DNA of 37,697 bases from a virus: positions 1 to 37,697 of the IMG/VR virus record IMGVR_UViG_3300042460_000811. The stretch is one strand, 5' to 3'. A model generated the notes under the pieces. That model searched no databases, had not been told where the DNA came from, and saw only the letters and a program-made list of their open reading frames with translations. The position numbers and the translations under genes are program-made. Below are positions 4,968 to 36,790 of the stretch, one piece after another. The first letter of the stretch is position 1. The number at the start of each line of letters is the position of its first letter.

Positions 4968-5183
4968 ATGGACGATATATTAAAACCAAAAATTGATTTA
5001 AAAACACAACCTACACTTGTGTGTGAGGGGTGCGGTAGCATTTACTTCAAAGAAGTTACTATGATAAAAAAAGTTAACAAGTTGTTAACAGGTAGTAATG
5101 AAGACACCATTGTACCATTCCCGACCTATAGATGTGACGATTGTGGTCACGTAAATGAAGATTTTAAATTATTTGATAAATAA
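4968..5183 (+). CDS. Zinc-ribbon protein
   Basis: A 71-residue protein with two cysteine pairs, C19-x2-C22 and C56-x2-C59 (YRCDDCGH), the pattern of a zinc ribbon. There is nothing else diagnostic. It sits between the nuclease and the gp47-like gene, with an A-rich leader (AAAAAAAAAGAATT) instead of a Shine-Dalgarno site. A small nucleic-acid-binding or protein-interaction factor is likely, but the function is unknown. Confidence 0.65.
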   Translation: MDDILKPKIDLKTQPTLVCEGCGSIYFKEVTMIKKVNKLLTGSNEDTIVPFPTYRCDDCGHVNEDFKLFDK

Positions 5184-5184
5184 G

Positions 5185-5964
5185 ATGATTAAAAAATTAG
5201 TTCACTTTAGTGACTTACATATTCGTTTATTTAAAGACCATGATTTGTATCGTGGTATCTTGAATGATATGTTAAATAGATTTAAGGAGATTAATCCTGA
5301 TAGAATTGTGTTCACAGGAGATTTAGTGCACTCAAAAAATCAAATGACACCTGAACTTATAGAGTTTGTTGCGTGGATTCTTACCGAATGTTCTAAGATT
5401 ACTAAGACAGTTTTAATTATTGGTAACCACGATTTCCTTGAGAATAATATGTCTCGATTAGATTCGTTAACACCAATCATTGATTCACTTAATAATGACA
5501 ACATTGTTTACCTAAAAAACCGAGGTGAGTATGCTGATGAGAATGTTGATTGGGTTGTGTTTTCATTAATGGACCACAACATTCCACCTGATATTGAAAA
5601 TAACGGTAAAACCAAAATTGGTTTATTCCACGGACCTGTTCAAGGACTAACTACGGATATTGGTTACAAATTTGAAACAGGATTCGACTCAGATAAATTT
5701 GGGGGGTGTGATTTAGTTCTTTGTGGTGATATTCATAAAAGACAAATCTTTAACATACCTGGTGGTAAGAAAGCATATATGGTTGGGTCAACAGTTCAAC
5801 AAAATTATGGTGAAACAATTAATAAACATGGGTTTGGTATATATGAACTTGAAAATGACAAATATGAATTTGTTGATTTGAAAAACCCAAAACCATTCTT
5901 ATCTTTTAAATTAAAATCATTTGATGACATCATAAATGGAACCGAAAAACTTGCCAACTCATAA
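5185..5964 (+). CDS. Recombination endonuclease subunit, gp47/SbcD/Mre11-like metallophosphoesterase
   Basis: A 259-residue calcineurin-fold nuclease. The metal-binding motifs occur in order: F-S-D-L-H-I near the N-terminus, F-T-G-D-L-V-H, I-G-N-H-D-F and L-C-G-D-I-H-K. Known partners (T4 gp47, SbcD, Mre11) act with an SMC-like ATPase to process DNA ends in recombination-dependent replication; the partner is encoded at 7288. I chose ATG 5185 (MIKKLVHFSDLH), 1 nt after the zinc-ribbon stop, because the family begins right at this strand; an in-frame ATG at 5155 would add 10 residues inside the previous gene. It lacks the longer C-terminal capping region of SbcD and is close to a minimal catalytic core. 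Confidence 0.85.
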   Translation: MIKKLVHFSDLHIRLFKDHDLYRGILNDMLNRFKEINPDRIVFTGDLVHSKNQMTPELIEFVAWILTECSKITKTVLIIGNHDFLENNMSRLDSLTPIIDSLNNDNIVYLKNRGEYADENVDWVVFSLMDHNIPPDIENNGKTKIGLFHGPVQGLTTDIGYKFETGFDSDKFGGCDLVLCGDIHKRQIFNIPGGKKAYMVGSTVQQNYGETINKHGFGIYELENDKYEFVDLKNPKPFLSFKLKSFDDIINGTEKLANS

Positions 5965-6655
5965 ATTAAACGCATTAAACATCAAAGATATTACCAGTTA
6001 TTGTAAATTGAATAATATTGATGATGTTGACTCTTTTGTTAACAAATGTTTCAAGAGAGGATATGATGTTGAGGTTTATGGACTTTTGGGAAAAACGTGC
6101 GGGATTGAAGAAAAACGTGCGGGAATTGAGGTAATTCAAGAAAAACGTGCGGAAATACCTGTTGAGGTTATAATCGAAGTTGAGAAAATAGTTGAAGTTG
6201 AAAAGATAATAGAAAAAACTATTGAAGTTCCTGTTGATAAAATAGTTGAAGTCATCAAAGAAATTCCCGTCGAGAAGGTGGTGATAAAGGAGGTTATTAA
6301 AGAAGTTCCTGTTGAGACTGTTGTCACAAAAATAGAATACATTAGTGACAATACTCAAATAAATGAACTGTTGTTAAAAATACAACAGTTGGAAAGTAGA
6401 CCACCTGAGATAATTGAAATAATTAAAGAAGTCCTTATGGACAAAATAGTAATTCAGGAGAAGATTGTTGAAGTTGATAAATCAAATGATAAGTCAAAAT
6501 TATTAGAGGTAACTTTACAGAACCTTAGAAAAGAATTAAGTTTAAAGAACGAAACAATTAAAGACCTTGAAAATAAAAATAAACAATTGGAATCTGTAAA
6601 TATTGACCGAGGAGCGGTTTATATGAAAGGTTCTAATATAACACAAAACATGTAA
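5936..6655 (+). CDS. Coiled-coil protein with EVPVE/VIKEV-type repeats
   Basis: A 239-residue protein, overlapping the gp47-like gene by 29 nt. Residues about 10-55 form a compact region (NALNIKDITSYCKLN). Residues about 75-150 are Val/Ile/Glu/Pro repeats of the type EVEKIVEV and KEIPVEKVV. The C-terminal third is a charged coiled coil ending in polar residues. The same repeat type recurs in the membrane protein at 11417-12268. Three copies of the 12-mer AAAAACGTGCGG lie at 6091, 6111 and 6141 and are read in two different frames. Function is unknown; a scaffold or filament-like role is only inference. Confidence 0.6.
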   Translation: MEPKNLPTHKLNALNIKDITSYCKLNNIDDVDSFVNKCFKRGYDVEVYGLLGKTCGIEEKRAGIEVIQEKRAEIPVEVIIEVEKIVEVEKIIEKTIEVPVDKIVEVIKEIPVEKVVIKEVIKEVPVETVVTKIEYISDNTQINELLLKIQQLESRPPEIIEIIKEVLMDKIVIQEKIVEVDKSNDKSKLLEVTLQNLRKELSLKNETIKDLENKNKQLESVNIDRGAVYMKGSNITQNM

Positions 6656-7287: not shown

Positions 7288-9657
7288 ATGGATTTGTTTA
7301 ATCCTCCAATAGAATTTAATTACACAATAATGACAAAAGATTTAGACATAACTACTTTGGATAACCCATACGTACAAGTCGTATGGGAAGATTATGCGGA
7401 GAACTTCACTCAGGAAAAGATTAAGAGTGTTAGACATTACTTCCAAAAGAAGTATTTGACGACTAACGTGAATGTTATTACCAAGACCAAGGTTAGTAAA
7501 GACACAACTCATACGGTAGACATTTCGTTTAATATTTTAGACGAAAATTACCAACTTGAGTTAGTTAAGTCTTTCTTAGGTTCTAAAGGTAATGAAAATC
7601 ATTTTGATGAGATTTACAATTTAAACACAGTGGTTGATAATAAGTTATTATTAAATCAAACTGAGGTGTCTCCATTTAAAAGATGGTTTATTAAAAACAT
7701 TGAGTTCTCTAACTTCCTTTCCTATGGAGAAAACCAAAAATTAGATTTTGAAAAGTGTGACGGTATTTCAGTTGTAGAGTCAAATCCGCCAAACTTTGGG
7801 GGTAAGACAGTACTTACGGTAGACTTATTATTATTCCTATTCTTTAACGAGACAACTAAAACGTCTAAAGCCGAGGAAATCTTCAACAGGTTTACTGATA
7901 AGAATAAAGTACACGTCAAGGGTGAAATCATCATTGACGGTGAAGAGTATATTATCGTAAGAAATATTGAAAGAAAACTATCTAAAGCGGGGGAATGGAA
8001 CGTTAAGACTGAGCTAGATTTTTTCAAAAAACTATCTGATGGTAGTCTACAAAACTTCACTGGTGAACAAAGAAGAGAAACTGAGAACTTTATTAAAACA
8101 TCTATTGGTTCTAAAGATGATTTCTTGATGACTATTTTGACTACCGCGACAAATTTAGAGGAGTTAATCGATTCTAAACCAACTGCTCGTGGACAGGTAT
8201 TATCTCGTTTTATGGGGTTAGATTTTTTAAAACGTAAAGAAGAAGCTGCTAAAGAAGTTTATTCTGAGTTCTCAAAATCAATGATGTCTAACATTTACAA
8301 TACCGAACAACTTAAAACAACAAACGAAGAAAGTTTAACTAAAATCACAGAACTTAATGAGAACAACGATGAGTTAGAACTTAGTTTAGTCAATGTTAAT
8401 GAGAGAATTGTTAAAGGTCAAAACTATCGTGATGGTTTACTGAATAGTAAACATAATATCGATAAAGAGGTTAGTTTAATTTCACCTGACAAAGTACAAT
8501 CTGAAATTAATAGTTTAGGGTTGGATAAGTCTAAAGCTATTTCTGATAGAGATAATGTTAAAGTTGTTGAACCATCTTCGTTTTATCATGAAGATGAACA
8601 TGATAAGGTTAAGGAAGAATACGATTCGGTATACAAAGAAGTGATACGTATTGATACGGAAATATCCGCAATTAACAAATTGAAGTCTTCAGTTGATGGT
8701 GGTATTAAATGCGAACACTGTGGTATTGAGTTGATGAACGCCGCGATAACTAATGCTAAAATAGCTGAACTTGCTGGTTATATCATGCAAAAAGAGGAAA
8801 ACGAGGGGTTAATGACGGTTTTATCAGGCAAAGAACAAGGATTTGTACAACTTAAGAAAGAGTTCGATGAGTATGAAAAAAACAAACTTATCAAAGAGAA
8901 ATATGACTTAAGTGTTGAACGTTTCCAATTAATGATTGATGCGTTAAAAACCAAATTGGAAAGATATTCTGAGGTACAAGATAAAATTGCTGAGAATAAT
9001 AAAACTGATGGGTTATTAATTCAGGCGGGTATATTACTTGATAAATTGGAGTTAGAAAAGAATGGGTTTATTAAGACTATTGATAATAATAACTTCCAAA
9101 TTAAAACGTTAACTGACAAGATTGGGGCTAACAAAAAAATCATTGAAAGAATTATTGAAGAGTCTGAGAAAGAAAAAATCTATAAGATTTACTTAGAGAT
9201 TTATGGTAAGAATGGTATTTCTAAATTAATTATGAAAACTATGATGCCGTTGATTAATGGTGAATTACAAAGATTGTTAGAAGACAGTTGTCACTTCAGA
9301 TTAGAAGTTAGAATTAACGATAAGAATGAAGTTGATTTCTTAATGATTGATAATAACACTCAAGTCGAGAAACCAATGGCTTCAGGTTCAGGGTATGAAA
9401 GAACTATCGCATCACTTGCGTTGAGAGCGGTATTAAGTAAGATTTGTTCGTTACCAAAACCAAACATAGTTGTGTTTGATGAGGTGTTCGGTAAGATATC
9501 AAATGACAATTTGGAAATGGTGTCTGAGTTCTTTAGTAAGATTAAAGAATATTTTGAAAAGATTTTTGTTATTACACATAATCCATTGGTTACCAATTGG
9601 GCCGACAACGTGGTTAAGATTAGAAAAGAAGAAAATATTAGTTTTGTGTCACAATAA
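7288..9657 (+). CDS. Recombination endonuclease subunit, gp46/SbcC/Rad50-like SMC ATPase
   Basis: A 789-residue SMC-like ATPase, the partner of the gp47-like nuclease. The ABC head starts near residue 137 (NIEFSNFLSYG), with a P-loop at 166-174 (N-P-P-N-F-G-G-K-T). Long coiled coils flank a zinc hook C475-E-H-C478. The signature region (S-G-S-G-Y-E-R-T near 700) and Walker B F-D-E-V-F (D731-E732) follow, then a switch histidine in T-H-N-P-L. The P-loop is slightly off consensus (Asn for the first Gly). About 130 residues precede the ATPase head, which canonical SbcC and gp46 proteins lack. The two subunit genes are separated by three small genes. Confidence 0.87.
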   Translation: MDLFNPPIEFNYTIMTKDLDITTLDNPYVQVVWEDYAENFTQEKIKSVRHYFQKKYLTTNVNVITKTKVSKDTTHTVDISFNILDENYQLELVKSFLGSKGNENHFDEIYNLNTVVDNKLLLNQTEVSPFKRWFIKNIEFSNFLSYGENQKLDFEKCDGISVVESNPPNFGGKTVLTVDLLLFLFFNETTKTSKAEEIFNRFTDKNKVHVKGEIIIDGEEYIIVRNIERKLSKAGEWNVKTELDFFKKLSDGSLQNFTGEQRRETENFIKTSIGSKDDFLMTILTTATNLEELIDSKPTARGQVLSRFMGLDFLKRKEEAAKEVYSEFSKSMMSNIYNTEQLKTTNEESLTKITELNENNDELELSLVNVNERIVKGQNYRDGLLNSKHNIDKEVSLISPDKVQSEINSLGLDKSKAISDRDNVKVVEPSSFYHEDEHDKVKEEYDSVYKEVIRIDTEISAINKLKSSVDGGIKCEHCGIELMNAAITNAKIAELAGYIMQKEENEGLMTVLSGKEQGFVQLKKEFDEYEKNKLIKEKYDLSVERFQLMIDALKTKLERYSEVQDKIAENNKTDGLLIQAGILLDKLELEKNGFIKTIDNNNFQIKTLTDKIGANKKIIERIIEESEKEKIYKIYLEIYGKNGISKLIMKTMMPLINGELQRLLEDSCHFRLEVRINDKNEVDFLMIDNNTQVEKPMASGSGYERTIASLALRAVLSKICSLPKPNIVVFDEVFGKISNDNLEMVSEFFSKIKEYFEKIFVITHNPLVTNWADNVVKIRKEENISFVSQ

Positions 9658-9688
9658 TTTGGAATTAACCAAAAAAGTTGTAACTTTG
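9658..9688 (+). promoter_or_regulatory. Bacteroidota-type promoter for the sigma-factor unit
   Basis: TTTG at 9658-9661, a 19-nt spacer, and TAACTTTG at 9681-9688: a full match to the Bacteroidota -33/-7 consensus (TTTG/TAnnTTTG). The ATG at 9704 follows 15 nt later. The -33 box directly follows the gp46-like stop codon. Confidence 0.8.
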
Positions 9689-9703
9689 TAAAAAATAAAA
9701 CGT

Positions 9704-10255
9704 ATGAATGATAAATTAACTAGTTATATTTTATTCGTCTTCGCTAAACACGATGAACAGGAAAAGTTTATAACATCATTAGCTGAGGAACTATCGGTAA
9801 TATCCGATTCATTAAATATAAAGTTTTATTATGGGCCCGAATCTGGTATTTTTACTTTTGATACCATGGATGATTTCCCAATTGTTAAGGAATATATGGA
9901 GATAATGTTTTGTGAAAGTAAAATTGTTTATATGTTGTTACCATATGAACATGACAAAATGTCAGTTGGTTTGACCGATGACATTTATAATCACTTATTT
10001 ACTCAAAATATTAGTGAAAATATGTCAGGTTTTGAACCTGAGGCACAAAAAATGTTAAGTAAAGAATTGAAGGAGAGAGTTGATTTGTTTTTTGATAAGA
10101 TAACAGACGACGAGGATGAAGATGACGAAATTAAAAAAATTAAGTCTAAATTACCAATTCCTTCTTTAGATAACCTACTCGATAAAATAAAAGATAAAGG
10201 TATGGTGTCATTAACAAAAAAAGAACTATCTTTGCTAGAACAATACTCTAAATAA
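9704..10255 (+). CDS. Acidic protein with Bacteroidota-type C-terminal helical tail
   Basis: A 183-residue protein. The N-terminal 110 residues look like a compact alpha/beta domain (SYILFVFAKHDEQEKF) with no recognised motif. An acidic linker follows (DDEDEDDE). The last 35 residues (LDNLLDKI...GMVSLTKKE) match a short tail that ends many Bacteroidota proteins, including rhomboid-family and DUF6576 proteins, with pattern LDxILDKI-xxxG-xxSLT-xxE. That tail supports a Bacteroidota host and may mediate interaction with a host factor (inference). It is the first gene after a canonical host-type promoter and lies 5 nt upstream of the sigma gene, so it could be a transcription takeover or sigma-modulating protein. 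Confidence 0.55.
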   Translation: MNDKLTSYILFVFAKHDEQEKFITSLAEELSVISDSLNIKFYYGPESGIFTFDTMDDFPIVKEYMEIMFCESKIVYMLLPYEHDKMSVGLTDDIYNHLFTQNISENMSGFEPEAQKMLSKELKERVDLFFDKITDDEDEDDEIKKIKSKLPIPSLDNLLDKIKDKGMVSLTKKELSLLEQYSK

Positions 10256-10260
10256 AAAAT

Positions 10261-11061
10261 ATGAAAGAAAAAAACTCATCAATTCCAATTAACCAAGAAG
10301 AGATACAAGTATATCTTAAAGACATTCGTAAAATTAAAGTTATGACTCCTGATAGGGAGAAAGAACTTGCTAAAATGATAGCCACTGAGGGAATTACCCA
10401 AAGAGAAAAAGACGCCATTCATAAAGAACTTTTAGAAGGTAATTTACGTTTTGTAATCACAGTCGCGAAACAATATCAAAATCAAGGATTAGATTTCCCT
10501 GATTTAATTGCGGAAGGTAATTTAGGGTTAATGAAGGCTATTCAAAATTTTGACTGGTCTAAAAATCTTAGATTTATTTCTTATGCGGTTTGGTGGGTTA
10601 AACAATCTATCTTACAGTCTTTAAATGATAACGCGAGAACGATTAGACTACCTGTTAATGTAGTTCAAGACTTACATCGTGCAAAGAAAGCAGTTGAATC
10701 TACGGGGGCTCAGTTAGATGCTAAATTCCAAAGTTTACCATCTATGATTGATTTGGATATGAATATTAATGAAGAAGGTGATACCTTAATTGATATTATC
10801 AAAAACGACCAAGCGGACATGCCTGATGAGGTGTTTAATAGTAAGGATATGTTAAAGTCAAAACTACTACATCTACTAACTTCTTTAGATGAAAGAGAAA
10901 AAGTAATCATTGAAGATTATTTTGGATTAACAGGAACACCAAGAACTTTAGAGGATATAGGGGGAGATTTCAACCTAACTAAAGAAAGGGTCCGACAAAT
11001 TAAAGAAAAGGCCTTAAGAAAATTAAGGAACGATAGTTCAGTTCTTTTCGATTATATGTAA
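10261..11061 (+). CDS. Phage RNA polymerase sigma factor, sigma-70 (RpoD-like) family
   Basis: A 266-residue primary-type sigma factor. Region 1.2 lies at 13-41 (IQVYLKDIRKI). Region 2 at 57-131 includes N-L-R-F-V-I-T-V-A-K and F-I-S-Y-A-V-W-W-V-K-Q-S-I, the core-binding and -10 recognition helices. Region 3 is shortened and poorly conserved (about 132-190). Region 4 at 205-256 carries the -35 recognition helix-turn-helix (TLEDIGGDFNLTKERVRQIK). Region 2.4 stays very close to Bacteroidota host RpoD, so host-like -7 boxes should still be readable, while region 3 divergence could change promoter choice. The unit runs from a host-type promoter (9658) to a strong terminator (11069). Confidence 0.93.
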   Translation: MKEKNSSIPINQEEIQVYLKDIRKIKVMTPDREKELAKMIATEGITQREKDAIHKELLEGNLRFVITVAKQYQNQGLDFPDLIAEGNLGLMKAIQNFDWSKNLRFISYAVWWVKQSILQSLNDNARTIRLPVNVVQDLHRAKKAVESTGAQLDAKFQSLPSMIDLDMNINEEGDTLIDIIKNDQADMPDEVFNSKDMLKSKLLHLLTSLDEREKVIIEDYFGLTGTPRTLEDIGGDFNLTKERVRQIKEKALRKLRNDSSVLFDYM

Positions 11062-11068
11062 AAAAAAG

Positions 11069-11102
11069 AAAACCTTCTATTTATTAAGATAGAAGGTTTT
11101 TT
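11069..11102 (+). terminator. Intrinsic terminator after the sigma gene
   Basis: A perfect 12-bp stem (AAAACCTTCTAT / ATAGAAGGTTTT) with an 8-nt loop, followed by a T run. It starts 7 nt after the sigma stop codon. Confidence 0.92.
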
Positions 11103-11129: not shown

Positions 11130-11420
11130 ATGAAAGCAATTTTAAATTTTATTGACACTTGGGGGATTAGAATCACTACATTATTGGTATTAGTTATCTT
11201 CCTTAAAACTTGTTCGACTAATGGAAAAGTTGAGAAAGTTCAAAAGAGAGTAGTTGAAACTAACATTAAAGTGGATTCGTTATCAATTGAATTACAGAAA
11301 CAAATTAAGATAGAAGGTCTTAAGTCTGAAAAAAGAATGATTCAATCTACTGATAGAAAAATTATGGATGTTAACAGACAGACAGAAATTGATAAAGAAA
11401 TATCTCAATTAGATAAATGA
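11130..11420 (+). CDS. Small membrane-anchored coiled-coil protein
   Basis: A 96-residue protein with one N-terminal membrane segment at about residues 11-28 (WGIRITTLLVLVIFLKTC), then a charged helical region likely to form a coiled coil. Its TGA overlaps the ATG of the next membrane protein (ATGA). The topology (short N-terminus, one membrane helix, long soluble helix) resembles the 13816-14157 product and inner-membrane spanins. The function is not assigned; a lysis or envelope role is possible. Confidence 0.55.
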   Translation: MKAILNFIDTWGIRITTLLVLVIFLKTCSTNGKVEKVQKRVVETNIKVDSLSIELQKQIKIEGLKSEKRMIQSTDRKIMDVNRQTEIDKEISQLDK

Positions 11421-12268
11421 AAATAATTTGGTCATGGATTAAATCCAACCCAATCAGAGCTATGTTCTTATTCCCCATTATATTAGTGGGGATTATTTCC
11501 ATTTCCCACGTAGTCTCTTGGTATAATTTAGCGAATCCAATTAGTTGGGCGATATATCTATCGATAGCCATAGAGATTGGTGCTATGACGGCATTGATTG
11601 CTGCAACAAATCGTATTAAAGGTGGTGTATGGTTCATGTTTGGTTTGGTCACGTTTGTGCAAATGATTGGTAATATATTCTTCTCTTATAAAGAAATTGA
11701 CTCCGACGGGGAATTATTTAAATCTTGGGTAGAACTAACTGGCCCTGTATGGGAAAGTTTAGGTTCTGACGTTACAGATGTTGTTGCATTGAAAAGATGG
11801 TTGGCATTTTTAGAAGGTGGTTTACTACCTATCATATCATTAACTTCATTACACTTTTTTACCAAATACGATGACGGTAGTTCTACTATTGTAGAACCTG
11901 AAGTTGTTGAGGTTATCAAAGAGGTTGAAGTACCTGTAGAAGTAATCAAAGAAGTTGAGGTTATCAAAGAGGTTGAAGTACCTGTAGAAGTAATCAAAGA
12001 AGTTGAGGTTATCAAAGAGGTTGAAAAAATTGTTGAAGTAATCAAAGAAGTTGAGGTTATTAAAGAAGTTGAAAAAATTGTTGAAGTACCTGTAGAAGTA
12101 ATCAAAGAAGTTGAGGTTATCAAAGAGGTTGAGAAAATTGTTGAAGTACCTGTTGAAGTAATCAAAGAAATTGAAAAAATTGTTGAAGTGATAAAGGAGA
12201 TTGAAATAACAACTACCACAACAACTGAAGATGATGTTAAACGATTAAGTTATGTGAAACCTAATTAA
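11417..12268 (+). CDS. Multi-pass membrane protein with long VIKEV/EVPVE repeat tail
   Basis: A 283-residue protein. Residues 1-155 contain about four membrane segments (roughly 16-35, 43-64, 69-88 and 131-148). From about residue 160 to 270 the sequence is almost entirely repeats such as EVIKEVEVPVEVIKEVE and EKIVEVPVEV, then a short polar end with a Thr run. Such Val/Glu/Pro repeats are superficially like the EKIVEVP repeats of protist alveolins and recur in the 5936-6655 product. The tail could be a self-associating cytoplasmic rod or fibre anchored by the membrane part. It shows no enzyme motif. It overlaps the upstream gene by 4 nt. Confidence 0.6.
   Translation: MKIIWSWIKSNPIRAMFLFPIILVGIISISHVVSWYNLANPISWAIYLSIAIEIGAMTALIAATNRIKGGVWFMFGLVTFVQMIGNIFFSYKEIDSDGELFKSWVELTGPVWESLGSDVTDVVALKRWLAFLEGGLLPIISLTSLHFFTKYDDGSSTIVEPEVVEVIKEVEVPVEVIKEVEVIKEVEVPVEVIKEVEVIKEVEKIVEVIKEVEVIKEVEKIVEVPVEVIKEVEVIKEVEKIVEVPVEVIKEIEKIVEVIKEIEITTTTTTEDDVKRLSYVKPN
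11903..12210 (+). repeat. In-frame tandem repeat coding for VIKEV/EVPVE units
   Basis: Imperfect direct repeats built from GAAGTTGAGGTTATCAAAGA and GAAGTACCTGTAGAAGTAAT blocks. Units vary at third codon positions and are combined in different orders, indicating repeated in-frame duplication within the 11417-12268 gene. Confidence 0.85.
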
Positions 12269-12299: not shown

Positions 12300-12905
12300 A
12301 TGGTTGATATAATTGACTACAAGAAATTTAAACCTAAGGGTAAACAAAAGAAAAAAAATCAAATAATCTTAACTCATACATCGAGGAATATCACAGATTA
12401 TTTAAACTCTATTAAGTATAGATATAATGGAAATTATTACAAAATTCCCAACTATATAATCACTAGAGATGGGAAAGTATTACAACTATTAGATAATACG
12501 GAACATTCCCAATACTTCGAAGAACCTAACATTAATAGGAATTCAATTATTATTTCATTAGAAAATTTAGGGTGGTTACAAAAAGAACCTCTAAAAGACT
12601 ATTACGTTAACTGGATTGGTGATATTTATAAAGGTAATGTGTTTGAAAAAAAGTGGAGAGATTACTTTTTTTGGCAACCCTATACCGATATCCAAGTACA
12701 GAGTACCAGTATATTGTGTAATATGTTGTTTAAGGAAATGTCTATAAAACCGATGGTTGTCGGACACAATACAAAAATAAATGGTATTGAGAAATATGAA
12801 GGTGTGGTCACTAAAAGTAATTTTGATGTGAATTTTACTGATGTTAGCCCGTCTTTTAATTTTGAAGAATTTTTAAAAAAAATTGATAATGAAAAAAATA
12901 GTTAA
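12300..12905 (+). CDS. N-acetylmuramoyl-L-alanine amidase-like endolysin (Amidase_2 fold)
   Basis: A 201-residue protein matching the Amidase_2/PGRP layout: I-I-L-T-H26-T-S (first zinc histidine), P-N-Y-I-I-T-R-D-G-K-V-L-Q-L-L, N-S-I-I-I-S-L-E-N-L-G, then V-V-G-H156-N and a third ligand candidate in T-D181-V-S-P. These enzymes cleave the bond between N-acetylmuramic acid and L-alanine in peptidoglycan. No signal peptide is present, so release would need a holin or pinholin. The lysis-cassette context is supported by spanin-like genes at 13816-14506. The divergence around the usual D-P-G motif is notable. It overlaps the start of the next gene by 17 nt. Confidence 0.7.
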   Translation: MVDIIDYKKFKPKGKQKKKNQIILTHTSRNITDYLNSIKYRYNGNYYKIPNYIITRDGKVLQLLDNTEHSQYFEEPNINRNSIIISLENLGWLQKEPLKDYYVNWIGDIYKGNVFEKKWRDYFFWQPYTDIQVQSTSILCNMLFKEMSIKPMVVGHNTKINGIEKYEGVVTKSNFDVNFTDVSPSFNFEEFLKKIDNEKNS

Positions 12906-13197
12906 ATTAACCGAGTCTGAATTAGAAAATCTTATTAAAAAATTTATTACTGAAGAAGAATCTGACGATGAATTTAACGATGACCCTTTTACAGTTGAAC
13001 CAAATGTTAAAATGATACCTAGAGAAAAACAACTACAAGGTATGTTTGGAAAATACGAGAGTCAAGTTCCAAATGATGTTTTAAGGTATTTAAGAAAAAA
13101 CCCACAACTAATCATGGACCGTTTAGTTAAGATTTATGGTGAAAAATTTTTAGATTTTGCTGAGAAGGCTTACGACAAACAATATAAGATAAAATAA
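12889..13197 (+). CDS. Small acidic protein with N-terminal KLTESEL tag
   Basis: A 102-residue protein that opens with MKKIVKLTESELENLIKK followed by FITEEE. The same N-terminal pattern starts other proteins in this window (28458, 33746, and internally 15394). After the tag come an acidic stretch (ESDDEFNDDP) and a helical domain (VPNDVLRYLRKNPQL). I chose ATG 12889 because it puts the tag at the N-terminus; ATG 12883 would add only two residues. The gene overlaps the amidase by 17 nt. Probable virion or prohead component by analogy with the other tagged genes; no enzymatic motif. Confidence 0.6.
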   Translation: MKKIVKLTESELENLIKKFITEEESDDEFNDDPFTVEPNVKMIPREKQLQGMFGKYESQVPNDVLRYLRKNPQLIMDRLVKIYGEKFLDFAEKAYDKQYKIK

Positions 13198-14507: not shown

Positions 14508-15356
14508 ATGAATATTAAGGAAACATACTCTGGTGATTTAAAAACTAAAATGGCTGATGAAATGAGTAAAACAGGTGTTTTCTCACAAGGTTCAGATGCG
14601 GTACAAACCGCAAACTCTTTTATTAGAAGTATACCTGAGGGTAAAAACAAAAAAGAAGAGATTATTCGTAAACCACTAAAGAAAGGTGTTACCGATAAGT
14701 TAGTTAGTACTAAAAAAATAAAAAAACCTATTGGTAAGTTAACCACAGGTTTACCTATAATGGGGGAAAAGAAAACTGAGTCAACTGAATCAACAGGTTC
14801 AGGTTCTGCGGGAGGGTTCTCATCACCATTATTCTCAACAACTAAAAAAGAAATGGAAGAGAATACATTCAAAGCTCCAAAACTGACTATGTTTTCGGAT
14901 GAGGCACCAAAACTTAAGAGAGAAATGAAAGAAGCTTGTTGGAAAGGATACAAACAGAATGGTATGAAAAATAAGAATGGTAAACAAGTACCTAACTGTG
15001 TTCCAATTAATGAGAATGAAGAAGGCGAAGTTAAGAAAACCGAAACCAAAGAAGCTACGGGTTCATCATCTTCAGGTTCTTATGAAACAAATGCCGCTTG
15101 GGCAAAATCAACAAGTAAAAAAGATTGGAGAGGTAAATCAAAAACTCAAATACCTGGTGGTAAATTTGTTCAAGTTAAAAAGAAATGTAAAAAATTCCCA
15201 TACTGTAATCAAGGTGACATTAAAGCCTTAAAAATATTTGAAAACGATACTGTTAAAAAAGTAATTACAAATATTAGTAAAAAACATAACATAAGTGAAA
15301 ATGTGATTAAAACGATACTATCTTATGAATATGAAAATAGTAAATCTAACAAATAA
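14508..15356 (+). CDS. Basic, disordered phage protein with Cys-containing VPNCVP motif
   Basis: A 282-residue protein, mostly low-complexity and lysine-rich. A short motif at about 145-167 reads A-C-W-K-G-Y-K-x-N-G-M-K, then K-x-V-P-N-C-V-P; from memory a similar motif occurs in other environmental phage proteins. A second ordered patch near 205-240 (DWRGKSKTQIPGGKF, then CKKFPYCNQGDIKAL) contains two more cysteines. The final 35 residues form a helix pair. It starts 1 nt after the spanin-like gene and ends within the sequence upstream of the EF-hand protein. Likely a structural or internal head protein (inference). Confidence 0.5.
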   Translation: MNIKETYSGDLKTKMADEMSKTGVFSQGSDAVQTANSFIRSIPEGKNKKEEIIRKPLKKGVTDKLVSTKKIKKPIGKLTTGLPIMGEKKTESTESTGSGSAGGFSSPLFSTTKKEMEENTFKAPKLTMFSDEAPKLKREMKEACWKGYKQNGMKNKNGKQVPNCVPINENEEGEVKKTETKEATGSSSSGSYETNAAWAKSTSKKDWRGKSKTQIPGGKFVQVKKKCKKFPYCNQGDIKALKIFENDTVKKVITNISKKHNISENVIKTILSYEYENSKSNK

Positions 15357-15371
15357 ACTGAAATATTTAGA

Positions 15372-15379
15372 TATTTATA
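15372..15379 (+). promoter_or_regulatory. TATTTATA box (putative late promoter)
   Basis: GATATTTATATTAAAAACG context, with 14 nt between the box and the ATG at 15394. It is nearly identical to the boxes at 21395 and 33724. Confidence 0.5.
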
Positions 15380-15393
15380 TTAAAAACGAGAAA

Positions 15394-16872
15394 ATGAAAA
15401 ACACAAATAACAAATACCTTGATAATTTGGTTGCTAGATTGGTAAAAGAAACCTTAGAGGAAAGAGCCGACGAGTTAACTACAAAGATAAATGAATTAGG
15501 TGGAATGGATGATGGTCATCCTAAATTTGGTAAACTAAACTTATCTAAGATGTCTGATAAAGACTTAGATGATTTGATGAATTCTAATGTAAAAGACGAG
15601 GACGACGCGTTTCAGTATGATGGTGACATAGATAATGAATTTGATGACGAAGAAGAATTAGATGAGTCTTCAGAAGTGTGTGAACAATGTGGTAATACCA
15701 TGAAAGAAAATGTTTGTGAACAATGTGGTTCAGGGAAAATGGAAGAAGGTATCTATGATGAAGAAGACCTTAATGGTGAGTTTGATTATGTTGAAGAAGA
15801 AGTTGACTTTGAAGATGAGGAAGAAACTGAAGACGAGACTCAGTCGGAAGATAAAGAGGCTTGTAAGTACCATATGGACAATTTTGGTCCCGAGGACGAA
15901 AGAACTCAACAGTTCTGTGGGTCAAGTAAAATGGGGTTAGATAAGTTTAAATTCTCAATGAACGAGAGATTAAAAGGTAGACAAAGAAATATTGACAAAA
16001 ACAAAAATGGTAAAATTGATTCTGAAGATTTTGAAATGTTAAGAAAAGGTGAGACCAAAGAAGGTAAAATGAATGAAAAATTGAAAGGTGGGCAGAAAAA
16101 TATTGACAAAAACAAAAATGGTAAAATCGATTCTGAAGATTTTAAAATGTTAAGAAAAGGTGAAACTAAAGAAGGTAAAAAATCAGTTAAACTTTCTGAA
16201 AGTGAAATGATTGATTTAATAGAAAAACTTGTTAGAGAAGAAAAGGCTAGCGAACAACAAACAAAAAATATTAAAAGTGCTGGAAAACCTAAAGGTCTTG
16301 CTAAGTATGAACAAATTCATACTAAAGATGGTAAAGAAAATAACAACTACATTAAGGATGTTTCTAAAAAAATGAAAGATTATTTGAAAGACGGTTCTAA
16401 AGGTGATTTTGATATGAACCCTAAAATGTTCCCTAAAGGAAATGGTGAATTGGCAAAAATGGAAAAGAAAGCGTATATCCCATCAACTGCGGTTGAGGAT
16501 TATGTTGACAACTTTACGGCGGCGGCTTTAGAGAATCTGGACTACGATGAGATTCAACCAAATGAAGAATGGGTGACAGATAACATCGAAGGTTCTTCAA
16601 GAACAGGAAATAACCCTGAATGGGCTAATACTGGTGAGTCTGATGTTAACAAAAAACGTAACAAAATCAGAAAAGACAATATGTTAGCTAAAATTAAGAG
16701 AAAGGCGTATAATAAATCACCTCAACCAGTTGTTAGTGATAACGCGGGTGAAGATAAAGGTAGTGCTATCATGGCTAAATTAGAGTCAACAGAACCAAAA
16801 CAAGCAAAACAAATTAATGAAGAGTTTGATAGAATGAAATCTTTAATGGGTTACAATCAAAAAACTCAATAA
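15394..16872 (+). CDS. Acidic multi-module virion-like protein with zinc-knuckle, tandem EF-hands and internal KLSESE tag
   Basis: A 492-residue protein. In order: an N-terminal helix (KYLDNLVARLVKETLEE), an acidic region, two C-x2-C pairs (CEQCGNTMKENVCEQCGSG), a very acidic stretch, then two tandem EF-hand-like loops D-K-N-K-N-G-K-I-D-S-E-D at residues 201-212 and 238-249. These are followed at about 265-285 by VKLSESEMIDLIEKLVREE, an internal copy of the tag that starts other proteins here. The C-terminus ends EEFDRMKSLMGYNQKTQ. Position 12 of each EF loop is Asp, not Glu, so calcium binding is plausible but weaker. I chose ATG 15394 over ATG 15325 because it follows the box at 15372 by a normal gap and does not overlap the upstream gene. 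Probably a structural or internal head protein. Confidence 0.6.
   Translation: MKNTNNKYLDNLVARLVKETLEERADELTTKINELGGMDDGHPKFGKLNLSKMSDKDLDDLMNSNVKDEDDAFQYDGDIDNEFDDEEELDESSEVCEQCGNTMKENVCEQCGSGKMEEGIYDEEDLNGEFDYVEEEVDFEDEEETEDETQSEDKEACKYHMDNFGPEDERTQQFCGSSKMGLDKFKFSMNERLKGRQRNIDKNKNGKIDSEDFEMLRKGETKEGKMNEKLKGGQKNIDKNKNGKIDSEDFKMLRKGETKEGKKSVKLSESEMIDLIEKLVREEKASEQQTKNIKSAGKPKGLAKYEQIHTKDGKENNNYIKDVSKKMKDYLKDGSKGDFDMNPKMFPKGNGELAKMEKKAYIPSTAVEDYVDNFTAAALENLDYDEIQPNEEWVTDNIEGSSRTGNNPEWANTGESDVNKKRNKIRKDNMLAKIKRKAYNKSPQPVVSDNAGEDKGSAIMAKLESTEPKQAKQINEEFDRMKSLMGYNQKTQ
15961..16182 (+). repeat. Two tandem 111-nt direct repeats encoding the EF-hand unit
   Basis: 15961-16071 and 16072-16182 align base for base with few changes. 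Each encodes 37 residues: a short basic lead-in, the EF-like loop and the segment M-L-R-K-G-E-T-K-E-G-K. High nucleotide identity, including third positions, points to a recent duplication. Confidence 0.9.
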
Positions 16873-19284: not shown

Positions 19285-20208
19285 ATGAGTATGAATAATT
19301 TTTACGATACACTAGGGGTTACGGAAACCTCAACCCAAGACGAAATTAAAAAGGCTTACCGTAAATTAGCTATTGAACATCACCCTGATAAAGGTGGGGA
19401 TGAAGATAAATTTAAAAAGATATCAGAAGCTTATAATATCTTAGGTGACGAAACTAAAAGAAGTCAATACGATAATCAAAGACAAAATCCTTTTGGCAAT
19501 ATGGGTGGGGGAGGATTCAATCCATTTGAAGACCTATTTAATGGGGCTTTTCATACTCAGAGAAGACGAAGTGTTCCTGATAAGGTAATTGAAGTTCAGG
19601 TTGGTGCTATTGAGTCGTTTATGGCGGGTGATAAAATAATTAACTACTCAAGACAACATATGTGTAATGATTGTAGTGGACAAGGTGGGGAAAGAGAAAC
19701 CTGTAATGTCTGTAATGGTGATGGATTTATTGTTCAAAAAATTGGCGGTAGTATGTTCTCTCAAATGGTTAGACAAGCTTGTAATAAATGTAAGGGTAAT
19801 GGGTTTTCATATAAAAAGACTTGTGGTACTTGTCATGGACAAACAACTAAGTCTGAAACGGAATCTATTAAAATTAAACTTCCACATGGTATTGATGACG
19901 GACAATTTTTAAGATTACAAGGTAAGGGGGATTATAAAGATGGTATGTACGGTAATTTGGTTATTAGAGTTAAAGCAACACCCGAGAATAATTTTGAAAA
20001 ACTTGGGGATGATTTAATTTATAATGCTTATTTTGATTTAGATGGGTTACGTACAGAGAATTTAGAGATTCCTCATCCACAAGGGAACATATTAATTAAA
20101 TTACCAACTCAATTTGATACATCAAAACCCCTTAGAGTTAAATCTAAAGGGTATAATAATGTTGGGGATATGTTTGTTAAACTTTTTGTTAGGTTTAACC
20201 GTAATTAA
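19285..20208 (+). CDS. dnaJ: DnaJ-type Hsp40 co-chaperone
   Basis: A 307-residue type I J-protein. The J domain (5-66) has the H33-P-D35 tripeptide needed to stimulate DnaK ATPase. A short Gly/Phe region (70-90, GNMGGGGFNPF) follows. Four zinc-finger repeats lie at C127-x2-C130, C140-x2-C143, C166-x2-C169 and C180-x2-C183. The C-terminal substrate-binding domain is shorter than in host DnaJ (about 375 residues) and lacks the usual dimerisation end. It probably redirects host DnaK to phage replication or folding of phage proteins. Start is ATG 19285; ATG 19291 would remove only two residues. No phage dnaK is in the window. Confidence 0.93.
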   Translation: MSMNNFYDTLGVTETSTQDEIKKAYRKLAIEHHPDKGGDEDKFKKISEAYNILGDETKRSQYDNQRQNPFGNMGGGGFNPFEDLFNGAFHTQRRRSVPDKVIEVQVGAIESFMAGDKIINYSRQHMCNDCSGQGGERETCNVCNGDGFIVQKIGGSMFSQMVRQACNKCKGNGFSYKKTCGTCHGQTTKSETESIKIKLPHGIDDGQFLRLQGKGDYKDGMYGNLVIRVKATPENNFEKLGDDLIYNAYFDLDGLRTENLEIPHPQGNILIKLPTQFDTSKPLRVKSKGYNNVGDMFVKLFVRFNRN

Positions 20209-21394: not shown

Positions 21395-21402
21395 TATTTA
21401 TA
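21395..21402 (+). promoter_or_regulatory. TATTTATA box (putative late promoter)
   Basis: AATATTTATATTAAAAAC context, 15 nt before the ATG at 21418. It closely matches the box at 15372 through 16 consecutive positions. Confidence 0.5.
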
Positions 21403-26084: not shown

Positions 26085-26408
26085 ATGGAAATTACACAAG
26101 AATTATTACAGGAAAAAATTAACAACGGAGAAAAATTAGTCGTGGACTTTTGGGCCCCTTGGTGTGGTCCTTGTAAGATGATGAAACCTATTTTTGAGAA
26201 AGTTGCGGAGAAATATCGAAATGAAAATTCTGACGTACAATTATACACATTAAATGTTGAGGAGAACAAAGAGTTTGCTGCCGAGTTAGGGATTCGAGCT
26301 ATTCCTACTGTTAAATCTTTCGCTAATGGTAAAGAACAATTCTCAAGGCCAGGGTTACAAATGGAGGGTCAGATAAACGATATCGCTAACGAGTTATTAA
26401 ATGGATAA
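26085..26408 (+). CDS. Thioredoxin
   Basis: A 107-residue thioredoxin with the complete active site W26-C27-G28-P29-C30-K31, the preceding V-V-D-F-W-A-P strand and the cis-proline loop R-A-I-P74-T. It is a cytoplasmic disulphide reductase. Likely uses in a phage are electron supply to ribonucleotide reductase, a polymerase processivity factor, or redox control; none can be chosen from this window. It is full length for the family and overlaps the glutaredoxin gene by 8 nt. Confidence 0.93.
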   Translation: MEITQELLQEKINNGEKLVVDFWAPWCGPCKMMKPIFEKVAEKYRNENSDVQLYTLNVEENKEFAAELGIRAIPTVKSFANGKEQFSRPGLQMEGQINDIANELLNG

Positions 26409-26685
26409 GATATTAATTCTTTTCACTATGGAAGGTTGTCCGTATTGTGAAATGATGAAAGAACAGTTAGATGCTATTAACGCTGATTACGTTGTTAGAG
26501 ATATTAACGAACACGAGGATGAATATAATATGTTTGTTGAGATAACAGAAAATGATTTTGTACCTGCGTTTATGATTGTAGAGTCGCCCGATGAAACCCC
26601 TAACACTATGTTATTTGCACCTGAAAGGGACTTTAATGAAATAGAAGACGGTGTTAAAATAATTAAAGAACATTTTAATTTATAA
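26401..26685 (+). CDS. Glutaredoxin-like protein
   Basis: A 94-residue protein with the C13-P-Y-C16 dithiol active site (MEGCPYCEMMK), a V54-P55 cis-proline loop and the thioredoxin-fold strand order. The usual glutathione-binding T-V-P is V-P preceded by N-D-F, and the C-terminal G-G-x-x-D motif is replaced by an acidic region (ERDFNEIEDG), so the substrate may differ from glutathione. It overlaps thioredoxin by 8 nt, suggesting coupled synthesis of two redox proteins. It ends at a strong terminator. Confidence 0.85.
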   Translation: MDKILILFTMEGCPYCEMMKEQLDAINADYVVRDINEHEDEYNMFVEITENDFVPAFMIVESPDETPNTMLFAPERDFNEIEDGVKIIKEHFNL

Positions 26686-28119: not shown

Positions 28120-28127
28120 TATAAATA
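28120..28127 (-). promoter_or_regulatory. TATTTATA box (putative late promoter)
   Basis: Minus-strand TATTTATA, 41 nt before the ATG at 28078 and immediately downstream of a terminator hairpin that ends the upstream gene. Confidence 0.45.
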
Positions 28128-28446: not shown

Positions 28447-28454
28447 TATTTATA
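28447..28454 (+). promoter_or_regulatory. TATTTATA box immediately before a start codon
   Basis: Plus-strand TATTTATA ends only 3 nt before the ATG at 28458. If it acts as a -10 element, the transcript would start at or inside the start codon, so either translation is leaderless from a later codon (GTG at 28470) or this copy is not a promoter. Confidence 0.3.
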
Positions 28455-28457
28455 GAT

Positions 28458-29822
28458 ATGGGAAATAAAGTGAGACTTACTGAACAAGGGTTACGTCAAT
28501 TAATTAAAAGAATTGTCGAGGAAGTTGATGGTGAATATTATAAGATATCACCTGAAGAATACTTAGACCTACTAAAGTTATCAGGGTATCACGGACGAGG
28601 AATCAGTAGATTACCAAAGTTCCAAGGAAAACCTCTGTGGATAACAGGTGACTTAAAAATAAATAATACATCAACAGATTCTTTAGGAAACGTAGGTTAT
28701 GTTGACGGTTCTTTAGATATTTCAAACACTAAGATTAGTGATATATCAAATATTAAAGTTAAAAAACATGTGTGGGACTCTGGAACTCCGATTGAACGTA
28801 AAAGATTAGCCGCGGAATTACAAAAAAAGAAAAATGAAATGGATGTTCTTCGTGCTAACGATGAATGGGATATCAATGATACTGACGAGTTAGGTTTAAA
28901 AGCAAATGCGTTATTTAAACATTTAGTTTCTGAAGGTTTAGATGTCTTAGATGATGAGGGGAAAGAAAGATTATCTAACTTAAAAATTGAGTTAAATAAA
29001 TTACAGGACGAATATGATAACGTTGAAGACTCTGAATTGGTATCTGATTTATATGATAAAATCACTGAGTTAGAAGGAGATATTGAAGGGTTAGAAAATG
29101 AGAACAACGATGTTTATCTTTTATTTCCAAATCGTTATAGTACCTATGGATTACAATCCTTTGAAGTATTGAGTCCTGAGTTTAAAAATATTGTGTATAG
29201 TGTCGGTACGTATGATGAAATGGATGAATCGGCTTTAAATTATGCTAAAAGTTATATAGATGAAGTCGGAGTAGATGGGTTTAATCAGGGATTTATTGAT
29301 GATTATATTGATACTGATTACGTTAGAAGTTATTTTAGTGACTGGTACGAAGATGACGTGAGACAAAACTCCGAAGTTTATTTCAATGAGAGTGATTACG
29401 AATTAACTTTAGCTCAAGAAGAAAGAAAAGACCAATTAGAAAATGAAATTTCTGAGTATGAAGAAAGACAAAGTAACTTAGATAGTGAAATTGAGGACCC
29501 TGATGAATATTCTAGAATGTATGACCAAATACAAGACCACATCGATTCCTTACAAGAAGAGTTAGATAATATAACACCTGATGATGAACCTACGGAACAA
29601 ATGATTGAGGATAAGGTTGAAAGTATGTTAGAAGATGTCGAAAGGAATCCAATATATTATATCAAAGAATATGGCGCTGACATTAAAGATTTTATCGATG
29701 AAAACGCTTTAGCCCAAGGACTGGTTGATAGTGACGGATGGGGAATTATGAATAGTTATGACGGTCAATATGATGAGGTAACCGTTGCGGGACGTGATTT
29801 TTATATCATGAGAGTCGAGTAA
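28458..29822 (+). CDS. Tagged virion-like protein with repeat-type beta region and coiled coils
   Basis: A 454-residue acidic protein. It starts MGNKVRLTEQGLRQLIKRIV, the tag pattern shared with other late-looking genes. At about 55-95 short repeats read W-I-T-G-D-L-K-I-N-N-T and V-D-G-S-L-D-I-S-N-T-K-I-S-D-I, like the L-x-L-x-x-T-x-I beta-helix/LRR-type repeats of phage proteins. Then come long charged coiled coils (about 105-225 and 345-405) and an acidic C-terminus ending R-D-F-Y-I-M-R-V-E. ATG 28458 is the first codon placing the tag at the N-terminus; a longer in-frame start at 28368 lacks coding character. Probably an internal or structural virion protein. Confidence 0.55.
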   Translation: MGNKVRLTEQGLRQLIKRIVEEVDGEYYKISPEEYLDLLKLSGYHGRGISRLPKFQGKPLWITGDLKINNTSTDSLGNVGYVDGSLDISNTKISDISNIKVKKHVWDSGTPIERKRLAAELQKKKNEMDVLRANDEWDINDTDELGLKANALFKHLVSEGLDVLDDEGKERLSNLKIELNKLQDEYDNVEDSELVSDLYDKITELEGDIEGLENENNDVYLLFPNRYSTYGLQSFEVLSPEFKNIVYSVGTYDEMDESALNYAKSYIDEVGVDGFNQGFIDDYIDTDYVRSYFSDWYEDDVRQNSEVYFNESDYELTLAQEERKDQLENEISEYEERQSNLDSEIEDPDEYSRMYDQIQDHIDSLQEELDNITPDDEPTEQMIEDKVESMLEDVERNPIYYIKEYGADIKDFIDENALAQGLVDSDGWGIMNSYDGQYDEVTVAGRDFYIMRVE

Positions 29823-31231: not shown

Positions 31232-32425
31232 ATGATAAAAATTGAGTATATATGGTTAGATGGTTATAAACCAGAACCTAATTTAAGGAGTAAGATTAAA
31301 GTAATTGAAGGAGAGATTCCTGACTTATCTAAAGTTCCTGAATGGAACTTTGATGGTTCATCAACAAAACAAGCTGAGGGATATAACTCTGACGGTATAT
31401 TAAAACCCGTTCGATTATATCGTGAGATGAATAGTATTGATAAGGTTTATGTTTTATGTGAGGTAATGAATCCTGATGGGACCCCACATGAATCAAATCA
31501 TAGAGATATGTTGGGTGATGAGGTTAATGACATGTGGTTTGGTTTTGAACAAGAATACTTCATTCAAGAGGGTGTTAGTAAACCAATCTTAGGGTTTAAC
31601 AGACCTCACGTTGAAGGACAAGGTAAATACTATTGTGGCGTTGGGAGTAATGTTGTTGGTAGACAACTAGTTGAAGAACATATGGATTTATGTTTGAGTA
31701 TGGGAATTGAAATTACTGGTGTTAACGCTGAGGTTGCTTTAGGACAATGGGAATATCAAGTATTCGCTAAAGGTAAAATTAAAGCTGGTGATGATTTATG
31801 GATGTCAAGATATTTGATGGAAAAATTATCCGAAAAATACGGGTACCATATTAACTACCATCCAAAACCTATCACGACAGGAGATTGGAATGGGTCTGGA
31901 CTACATACAAACTTCTCAACAAAAAAGATGAGAGAAGTTGGTGGGGAAAACTATTTTAAAACGTTATTCAATGCTCTTGAATCAAGAAGAGAACAACACA
32001 TTGAGGTTTATGGTTCTGACAACAACCTTAGATTAACAGGTAAACATGAAACACAATCAATTCATAAATTTAGTTGGGGTGTAAGTGATAGAGGGGCGTC
32101 AATCCGAGTCCCAAGGTCTGTTGCTGAATTATGGAAGGGTTATGTTGAGGATAGAAGGCCAGCATCGAATGCTAATCCATATGAAATTATTAAAGTGATA
32201 AGTGACACTATTGACATGGCGGATGAGTTATCTGTTACGTTGAATAACATGTATTCAAATGTTAACACCAAAAACTTTGATGATTTAAAATCTAAGTACA
32301 ATGGAATACCAACTGCTCAAGAACTCTTAGATGAGTATAAAAATGATGATGATTATGAATTATCAGAAGAAATGACCAACTCTAGTGCGTACATCAAACC
32401 AGAATCAATTGATAATAAAAATTAA
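31232..32425 (+). CDS. Glutamine synthetase, type II (GSII)
   Basis: A 397-residue enzyme that makes glutamine from glutamate, ammonia and ATP. The N-terminal beta-grasp segment I-E-Y-I-W-L-D-G and the block E-W-N-F-D-G-S-S-T (near 37-45) are typical of GSII. The catalytic region holds F-G-F-E-Q-E-Y-F, Y-Y-C-G-V-G, N-A-E-V-A-L-G-Q-W-E-Y-Q, then N-G-S-G-L-H-T-N-F-S and R-P-A-S-N-A-N-P-Y. All major active-site blocks are present. A tail of about 50 residues extends beyond the usual end. A phage copy could boost glutamine for nucleotide synthesis (inference). Nearby small genes share the operon; DUF3310 follows after 4 nt. Confidence 0.93.
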   Translation: MIKIEYIWLDGYKPEPNLRSKIKVIEGEIPDLSKVPEWNFDGSSTKQAEGYNSDGILKPVRLYREMNSIDKVYVLCEVMNPDGTPHESNHRDMLGDEVNDMWFGFEQEYFIQEGVSKPILGFNRPHVEGQGKYYCGVGSNVVGRQLVEEHMDLCLSMGIEITGVNAEVALGQWEYQVFAKGKIKAGDDLWMSRYLMEKLSEKYGYHINYHPKPITTGDWNGSGLHTNFSTKKMREVGGENYFKTLFNALESRREQHIEVYGSDNNLRLTGKHETQSIHKFSWGVSDRGASIRVPRSVAELWKGYVEDRRPASNANPYEIIKVISDTIDMADELSVTLNNMYSNVNTKNFDDLKSKYNGIPTAQELLDEYKNDDDYELSEEMTNSSAYIKPESIDNKN

Positions 32426-33723: not shown

Positions 33724-33731
33724 TATTTATA
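33724..33731 (+). promoter_or_regulatory. TATTTATA box (putative late promoter)
   Basis: TGATATTTATAATAAAAAAA context, 14 nt before the ATG at 33746, directly after the terminator of the preceding gene. Confidence 0.5.
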
Positions 33732-36765: not shown

Positions 36766-36766
36766 A
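36732..36766 (+). terminator. Intrinsic terminator upstream of smpB
   Basis: Stem AAACCCTAACA / TGTTAGGGTTT with a loop of about 10 nt and a T run. It cannot terminate the minus-strand DUF192 gene, so it must end a plus-strand RNA coming from the left. Confidence 0.8.
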
Positions 36767-36778
36767 ATTTTTAATTAC

Positions 36779-36786: not shown

Positions 36787-36790
36787 CTTC

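Follow-up and report, generated by a model that had tools for sequence, protein, structure and literature searches.

We analyzed a 37,697-base virus record (IMG/VR record IMGVR_UViG_3300042460_000811; the window, below, is the whole of this record) and found that a compact two-gene unit within it, in which the open reading frame (ORF) of an acidic protein (9704-10255, 183 residues; the partner, below) directly precedes the gene for a sigma-70 family factor (10261-11061, 266 residues), probably moves transcription from early to late genes in a clade of large phages of Bacteroidota type, which are represented here by metagenomic sequences. All features lie on the + strand except where stated. 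The unit opens with a host-type promoter, composed of the -33-type element TTTG (9658-9661), a 19-nucleotide (nt) spacer and the -7-type box TAACTTTG (9681-9688, of host sigma-A type), and ends in an intrinsic terminator hairpin with a T run (11067-11102). A preceding sequence-only reading had described the same closed unit, and each of its parts was found again at these positions. That reading took the unit for a switch from host to phage transcription; its closed, host-promoter-driven layout stood, but the gene classes found behind a second motif, TATTTATA, move the proposal to a switch toward late (virion, packaging and lysis) genes. The hairpin likewise held up as the end of the unit, except that a late promoter, with which the lysis module begins, seems to be embedded in the terminator as well. 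That reading also put forward, as possibilities, that the partner may control sigma or bind host polymerase and that recognition of TATTTATA may need a second factor. The phage nature of the record and its Bacteroidota-type host are inferred from gene content, promoter type and the C-terminal DUF6576 tail of the partner.

Relatives of the unit were gathered from two seeds. The window sigma yielded 106 confirmed relatives, the best 80 of which (73-91% identity to the window sigma) were analyzed, and an alignment of the partner yielded 155, of which the best 80 were taken; one of these was already in the sigma set, leaving 79 new loci. The two sets overlap in contigs and jointly hold 81 distinct partner-sigma stretches. 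A partner ORF lay immediately 5′ of sigma in 80/80 sigma-seeded loci (counting L050, in which the partner is cut at the contig end with 69 residues visible), ending at most a few bases short of the sigma ATG or slightly past it, and sigma lay immediately 3′ of the partner in 79/79 new partner-seeded loci (counting L105, L116 and L153, in which partner or sigma is shortened). This strict co-occurrence argues for a job shared by the two proteins. One partner-sigma pair (L206, RFNS01000300.1) sits on a 3.3-kb contig of a genome titled as an Alphaproteobacteria metagenome-assembled genome, and is probably a misbinned phage contig.

Bacteroidota sigma-A promoters combine a TAnnTTTG box with a TTTG half about 19 nt before it, and the unit carries this arrangement. 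The box is published for Flavobacterium as the sigma-A -7 box, at -12 to -5 (PMC9723704); read in this register, the unit would have its transcription start about 11 nt ahead of the ATG of the partner. Within the window alone the pattern is within chance (6 occurrences vs. 2.7 expected, a count reached by 9 of 100 shuffles), and it is conservation among relatives that places the promoter beyond it: of 69 distinct 100-nt stretches ahead of the partner, 65 contain TAnnTTTG, where mononucleotide shuffling predicts 5.3, which bears out the host-type promoter first picked out by eye. A TTTG stands 17-22 nt further up in 38 of the 69. Three of the 65 (L044, L046 and L052) have the box 39 nt up, inside the end of the upstream gene, where it is probably fortuitous. 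Only 3 of the 69 regions contain TATTTAT[ACT].

The sigma factor is identified by Pfam matches over the cut-off to regions 1.2, 2 and 4, by PHROG 351 and by alignment with Bacteroidota RpoD proteins. In that alignment it retains regions 2.3-2.4 (WWVKQSILQSLNDNARTIRLP) and region 4, in keeping with the host-like region 2.4 noted in the sequence-only reading, and has about 16 residues fewer in region 3.1 (region names are our own); no Pfam match to region 3 was listed for it, so that it differs from primary sigmas with a full region 3. Each of 13 related records of 165-322 kb encodes one sigma-70 region 2 over the cut-off, and the beta subunit of RNA polymerase (RNAP) found no match in the three records searched (the window record and two 320-kb records). 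Outside the clade, four fecal loci with sigma relatives, several of which may be bacterial contigs, contained nothing matching partner or tail at an E value under 0.1. The sigma of Prevotella phage Lak-A1 is 25.8% identical, and the 6.8-kb stretch around it gave no partner or tail match, but its ORFs looked broken, possibly by recoding.

The motif TATTTATA is not enriched in a count over the whole window (11 vs. 8.3 expected), and strand-aware counting upstream of genes was needed to reveal it. Counted in this way, the 24 upstream regions of the window contain it 4 times vs. 0.26 expected: before ORF 21418 (21395-21402), before ORF 28078-27257 (28120-28127, - strand), 3 nt upstream of the ATG at 28458 (28447-28454) and before ORF 33746 (33724-33731). 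The motif exceeds expectation in 9/9 sampled unit-bearing phages. In an unbiased count of upstream 8-mers, TATTTATA and its shifted form ATATTTAT came out on top in both G005 (21 vs. 1.06 and 26 vs. 1.25) and G006 (18 vs. 0.86 and 19 vs. 1.03), and one or the other was the top 8-mer in 8/9 phages, the overlapping AGTATTTA being slightly higher in G159. The lowest TATTTATA ratio was that of G154 (5 vs. 0.6), where ATATTTAT reached 17 vs. 1.12. By comparison, the 159 regions from seven Bacteroidota host genomes, which are richer in G+C (40-54%), contained TATTTATA once vs. 0.34 expected and TAnnTTTG 19 times vs. 3.8. AT-rich control phages gave 0 vs. 0.71 (phi14:2) and 1 vs. 0.92 (phi10:1) in a count that gave 31 vs. 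2.17 for G005 and 23 vs. 1.94 for G006, and two further controls, Lak-A1 (1 vs. 0.44) and LR745206, which has tail proteins (2 vs. 0.97), gave numbers too small to judge by. The proposal that TATTTATA marks a class of phage promoter was thus strengthened, its upstream enrichment being present in all nine unit phages and not clearly so in the hosts or the four control phages. As a separate observation, TAATATAT is over-represented in the upstream regions of LR745206 (L302, 634 kb; 8 vs. 0.64) and perhaps marks another promoter class of huge phages.

Pooling 240 TATTTAT sites from the nine phages, we found an A immediately before the motif in 69% and A-rich columns 11 to 13 bases past its first base. 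There was no sign of a -33 element, as TTTG preceded 16 of these sites vs. 11 in the control, whereas TTTG preceded TAnnTTTG at 18 of 71 sites vs. 5 in the control. The genes behind the two motifs differ in kind. Eight of 28 genes behind TATTTAT had a functional PHROG, all for virion, packaging or lysis (tail sheath, terminase, portal, head maturation protease, two head-tail adaptors and two endolysins), and 13 of 20 genes behind TAnnTTTG had one, none of them virion (helicase, ribonucleotide reductase, methyltransferase, nuclease, five peptidases, three phosphoesterases and a lipoprotein). The late list comprised 18 of the 19 longest G005 and G006 genes preceded at no more than 60 nt by ATATTTAT or TATTTATA, and ten hand-chosen TATTTAT genes, including L235:10936 (the motif of L233:13785 lies more than 50 nt up). 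The early list comprised 20 genes, all but one of the 21 longest that have TAnnTTTG, and neither ATATTTAT nor TATTTATA, within 60 nt; it omits L232:9286, the second DUF6576 protein of G005, which has TATTTATT 3 nt before its ATG. On these grounds TATTTATA is most likely a late promoter, and we infer that the sigma of the unit would be the factor that reads it, since it is the only sigma over the cut-off and the unit's own promoter is of the early type. Gene timing in the clade could then be read from sequence through a probable promoter code, TAnnTTTG for early and TATTTATA for late. Late promoters of Bacteroidota phages appeared in no title among the literature matches listed, and may still be in print.

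The distance from motif to ATG, which may be biased by a gene caller that takes the longest ATG ORF, is bimodal, 78 of the 240 TATTTAT sites ending 3-5 nt from the ATG (L230-L243 and L264-L283); TAnnTTTG stands exactly 4 nt from the ATG at 16 of 71 sites. Both peaks rest on predicted start calls and suggest leaderless mRNAs, which make up 5.5% in Flavobacterium psychrophilum (PMC9723704).

The terminator hairpin folds as RNA with -18.4 kcal/mol (z -4.65; 0/200 shuffles as good) and is followed by a T run, as an intrinsic terminator should be. By our own criteria, a hairpin with a T run occurs in 33 of 71 distinct 75-nt regions past sigma. A repeat search that required at least 9 net pairs, and neither a T run nor any sequence, found a hairpin in 35 of the 71, and 32 of these 35 contain TATTTATT, which lies at 11078-11085 in the window. 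The 15-mer ACCTTCTATTTATTA is exact in those 32; no region has it with 1-3 mismatches, and the other 39 have at least 4. At fourfold sites, mean identity among the sigma genes of 21 representatives is 43.7%, so the invariance of ACCTTCTATTTATTA points to constraint on the hairpin element. The bases opposite TATT vary (AA, GA, AG, GG or CG before TAGAAGG), this side of the stem being held less tightly. Of the three other hairpins, that of L073 is unrelated, and in L020 and L074 ATATTTAT falls within the loop or close to it. In the latter two, 20-45 nt past the sigma stop, the motif is part of a palindrome (CTCAT...ATGAG) that has no T run and the 3′ arm of which forms the beginning of the next gene. 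Fifteen of the remaining regions have a stand-alone TATTTATA or TATTTATT before a small membrane-like ORF of 89-99 residues; a protein search found this ORF homologous to the window gene at 11130 in L055, L058, L061, L063, L071 and L108, and detected no homology in the other nine.

We consider TATTTATT in the hairpin to be probably a nested late promoter for lysis genes, such that early stop and late start appear to share the same bases of one compact hairpin. The first gene past the unit encodes a small membrane protein, weakly Rz-spanin-like (11130-11420; PHROG 739, E 0.0087), and an amidase, a probable endolysin, follows at 12300-12905 (Pfam PF01510, E 2.1e-9). A homologue of the former lies within 300 nt downstream in 40 of the 81 distinct loci, and an amidase homologue lies downstream in 71 of the 81. 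Speaking against a nested promoter, a degenerate ACTTTTATA closer to the ATG could serve instead.

The partner is acidic (isoelectric point 4.55 in the window; median 4.45 over 50 members) and variable, with 21-84% identity to the window protein compared with 73-91% for sigma. AlphaFold2 predicts a beta-alpha-beta-beta-alpha-beta, ferredoxin-like core (residues 4-94, 9713-9985) with a predicted local distance difference test score mostly of 84-92, then a C-terminal helical hairpin; confidence is low in residues 103-118 and 136-150, around an acidic linker. The core resembles many ferredoxin-like structures in the PDB (ribosomal protein S6, Z up to 9.0; ACT domain, 8.4), and since this is a common fold, no function was inferred from it. 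The C-terminal hairpin (residues 155-183, 10166-10252) is the best-conserved stretch of the protein and matches Pfam DUF6576 (PF20216, E 1.3e-8) with 35.2 bits over a gathering cut-off of 27.3, putting a family name to the Bacteroidota-type tail that had been noticed on this acidic gene. All 50 distinct partner relatives examined match it at E values up to 0.1.

DUF6576 was present in 148/148 Bacteroidota genomes searched, mostly, among the matches listed, in one ORF of about 270-350 residues apart from some short exceptions, and 8/8 cellular proteins tested were rhomboids (matching PF01694). The partner thus has the C-terminal hairpin in common with Bacteroidota rhomboids, and differs from them in having the tail fused to another core; the rhomboid domain PF01694 found no match in the window partner at E 1, so that it is not a rhomboid protease. 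One phage of the clade has a second DUF6576 match, inside a 233-residue protein, and two huge-phage records encode tail proteins with no sigma match within 3 kb. Once ORFs matching the partner profile as well had been excluded, a scan of the ORFs of the fetched phage loci with the tail profile found none. In L063, upstream of 7460 (L111 3857-4102 of the same contig), the partner is immediately preceded by another ORF whose tail resembles DUF6576, perhaps a duplication of the partner. The partner found no match in named phages by tblastn, no confirmed match in viral contigs as a single sequence (an alignment query was required), nothing credible in the PDB by profile (best KRas, E 0.12) and no PHROG family common to more than 3 of 50 members; BFVD holds one phage homologue, A0A6J5L5Y3 (E 4.8e-13), which is uncharacterised. 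Our literature search found no paper with the word DUF6576, and the phage copy could make the function of this domain testable, as the tail of a new family of sigma partners.

Taken together, we propose the following course of infection. Early on, host holoenzyme would read TTTG-N19-TAACTTTG, both elements of which are present in the sequence, giving a short two-gene mRNA that ends at the hairpin. The phage sigma would then join host core RNAP and guide it to (A)TATTTATA promoters, which consist of a single element and stand before virion, packaging and lysis genes. The partner, translated just ahead of sigma, may work alongside sigma as accessory subunit or co-activator, docking through its DUF6576 tail. 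Late transcription of the lysis module would start inside the 3′ arm of the hairpin, about 5 nt past TATTTATT, and the RNA would escape the terminator, which it could not form because a start past TATTTATT omits the 5′ arm.

Several observations weigh against this early-to-late switch. The nested TATTTATT stands 44 nt from the next ATG compared with the usual 3-5 or 11-17 nt, and it represents one inherited element, not many independent ones. The late list is partly hand-picked, with several genes in one G005 cluster and 20 of 28 lacking a functional PHROG. G157 and G159 each have a second sigma match below the cut-off, and the sigma retains region 4 though the late motif has no -33 element. 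Judged by its matches, the DUF6576 tail is a general module, found on host rhomboids and other phage proteins. Finally, when partner and sigma were modeled by AlphaFold as a single read-through chain, no interface was predicted (predicted template modeling score 0.30), though this was a weak test, with a shallow alignment of 34 rows and a short linker.

Two other accounts of the partner are each, in our view, unlikely. In the first, the partner shuts the host down by inhibiting the sigma-A holoenzyme and the phage sigma reads TATTTATA alone, after the pattern of phiEco32 gp79 and gp36, in which gp79 is described as inhibiting sigma70 transcription and stimulating gp36-dependent transcription (PMC8948821). 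A small, acidic protein that evolves much faster than its sigma is what one would expect of a host-facing protein, yet the best-conserved stretch of the partner is its tail and not a fast-changing host interface, and strict adjacency to sigma suits a sigma partner equally well or better. In the second account, whose prospects seem to us similarly slim, the tail docks on whatever binds rhomboid tails, and the main job of the partner is to place the late complex or recruit a host protein and not to recognize promoters. The universal presence of DUF6576 in the Bacteroidota genomes, on rhomboids in all eight cases tested and on all 50 partners, fits such docking; on the other hand, the tail turns up again in unrelated proteins of huge phages, may simply be an oligomerising hairpin of a generic kind, and has no binder known to us. 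A joint reading, doubtful as a whole, would make the partner a phage sigma subunit of a novel type; its tail, copied from the cytoplasmic docking motif of host rhomboids, would tether late transcription to, or take over, a broadly used Bacteroidota protein, with the terminator doubling as a late promoter (early stop and late start in the same 36 bases).

We regard it as quite improbable that the partner acts on the phage sigma as an anti-sigma factor or timer, setting it free only upon a signal such as replication. Anti-sigma genes often adjoin their sigma, and the partner is co-conserved with sigma at short intergenic spacing; however, the partner gene comes first, so that its product would be made before or with sigma, and no anti-sigma family was among the matches, the fold search having returned a common fold only. 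Equally hard to credit is the notion that some other phage factor reads TATTTATA, or that the motif is an AT-rich signal for the start of translation. Although Bacteroidota start sites are A/T-rich and the motif often ends 3-5 nt from the ATG, that peak matches the one shown by the known promoter box TAnnTTTG, virion and lysis genes lie behind the motif, hosts and phi14:2 show no enrichment of it, and each phage has one sigma over the cut-off.

Among known systems, the early-to-late switch proposed here resembles in gene arrangement that of SPO1, in which two adjacent phage proteins, gp33 and gp34, one of them a sigma, are both required for late promoters. Of these, gp34 is the late sigma (PMC9429907). 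The unit has in common with SPO1 two side-by-side phage genes, one encoding a sigma, an adjacency that held at every sigma-seeded and every new partner-seeded locus. The likeness is drawn from this arrangement, and promoter and host phylum differ. The T4 gp33 family has as its hallmark binding to both the RNAP beta flap and the sliding clamp. In 11 records, the gp45 clamp profile (PF02916) gave no match over the cut-off and one at E 0.05, in a search whose controls lacked a T4-like phage and which leaves a diverged clamp possible; on this result, and with that reservation, the T4 clamp-coupled model was rejected. The unit often adjoins gp46- and gp47-like genes, much as gene 55 of T4 adjoins those for gp46 and gp47. 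T4 gp55 consists of a sigma region 2 homology domain and a helix-loop-helix, and the unit sigma, which has region 4, is not of this type.

T4 late promoters are described as having a -10-like element with no sequence conservation at -35, to which a phage sigma redirects host RNAP (PMC7892883), and the switch proposed here is alike in that its sigma would redirect host RNAP to -10-like late promoters with no -35 element. The same source describes gp33 as five helices (PMC7892883), a description that sets it apart from a partner predicted to be ferredoxin-like with a DUF6576 tail. The phiEco32 gp36 promoters consist of the single element tAATGTAtA (PMC8948821); the switch proposed here would share with phiEco32 a single-element late promoter read by a phage sigma and a small helper that also stimulates, and differs in that gp36 is described there as lacking region 4 homology, whereas the unit sigma retains region 4. 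Group 2 jumbo phages, including Bacteroidetes phages, are reported to encode sigma factors (some RpoD-like) and gp33 orthologues with no RNAP of their own (PMC7824862). They resemble the present clade in this respect, the same strategy having been proposed for them earlier, and since RpoD-like sigmas in Bacteroidetes jumbo phages had been noted, the unit sigma itself was to be expected; the portion of that account available to us does not include this partner, TATTTATA or the terminator element (PMC7824862). As far as the literature was searched, the strict partner, its tail, the promoter code and the terminator element are new.

Upstream, the unit adjoins the gene for an SbcC-like (T4 gp46-type) subunit (7288-9657, its stop at 9657; PHROG 77, E 2.2e-34), itself preceded by that for an SbcD-like (T4 gp47-type) nuclease subunit (5155-5964; PHROG 100, E 1.2e-28). 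Among the 73 distinct loci with room for them (more than 3 kb of upstream sequence), an SbcC-like homologue lies upstream of the unit in 71, no more than 150 nt away in 37, and an SbcD-like homologue in 47. Proteins with coil repeats of the (V/I)EVIKEVEV(P) type are encoded at 5936-6655, before the SbcC-like gene, and at 11417-12268, after the unit. The peptide KLTESELxxLIxxIVxEE recurs in otherwise different window proteins, at the N-termini of 12883-13197, 28458-29822 and 33746-34858 and internally in 15325-16872, with a similar peptide in the 233-residue protein of L220, and is possibly a virion or capsid targeting tag. Elsewhere in the window, translations read as apparent host-type genes for DnaJ (19285-20208), thioredoxin (26085-26408), glutaredoxin (26401-26685), glutamine synthetase (31232-32425) and SmpB (36752-37225).

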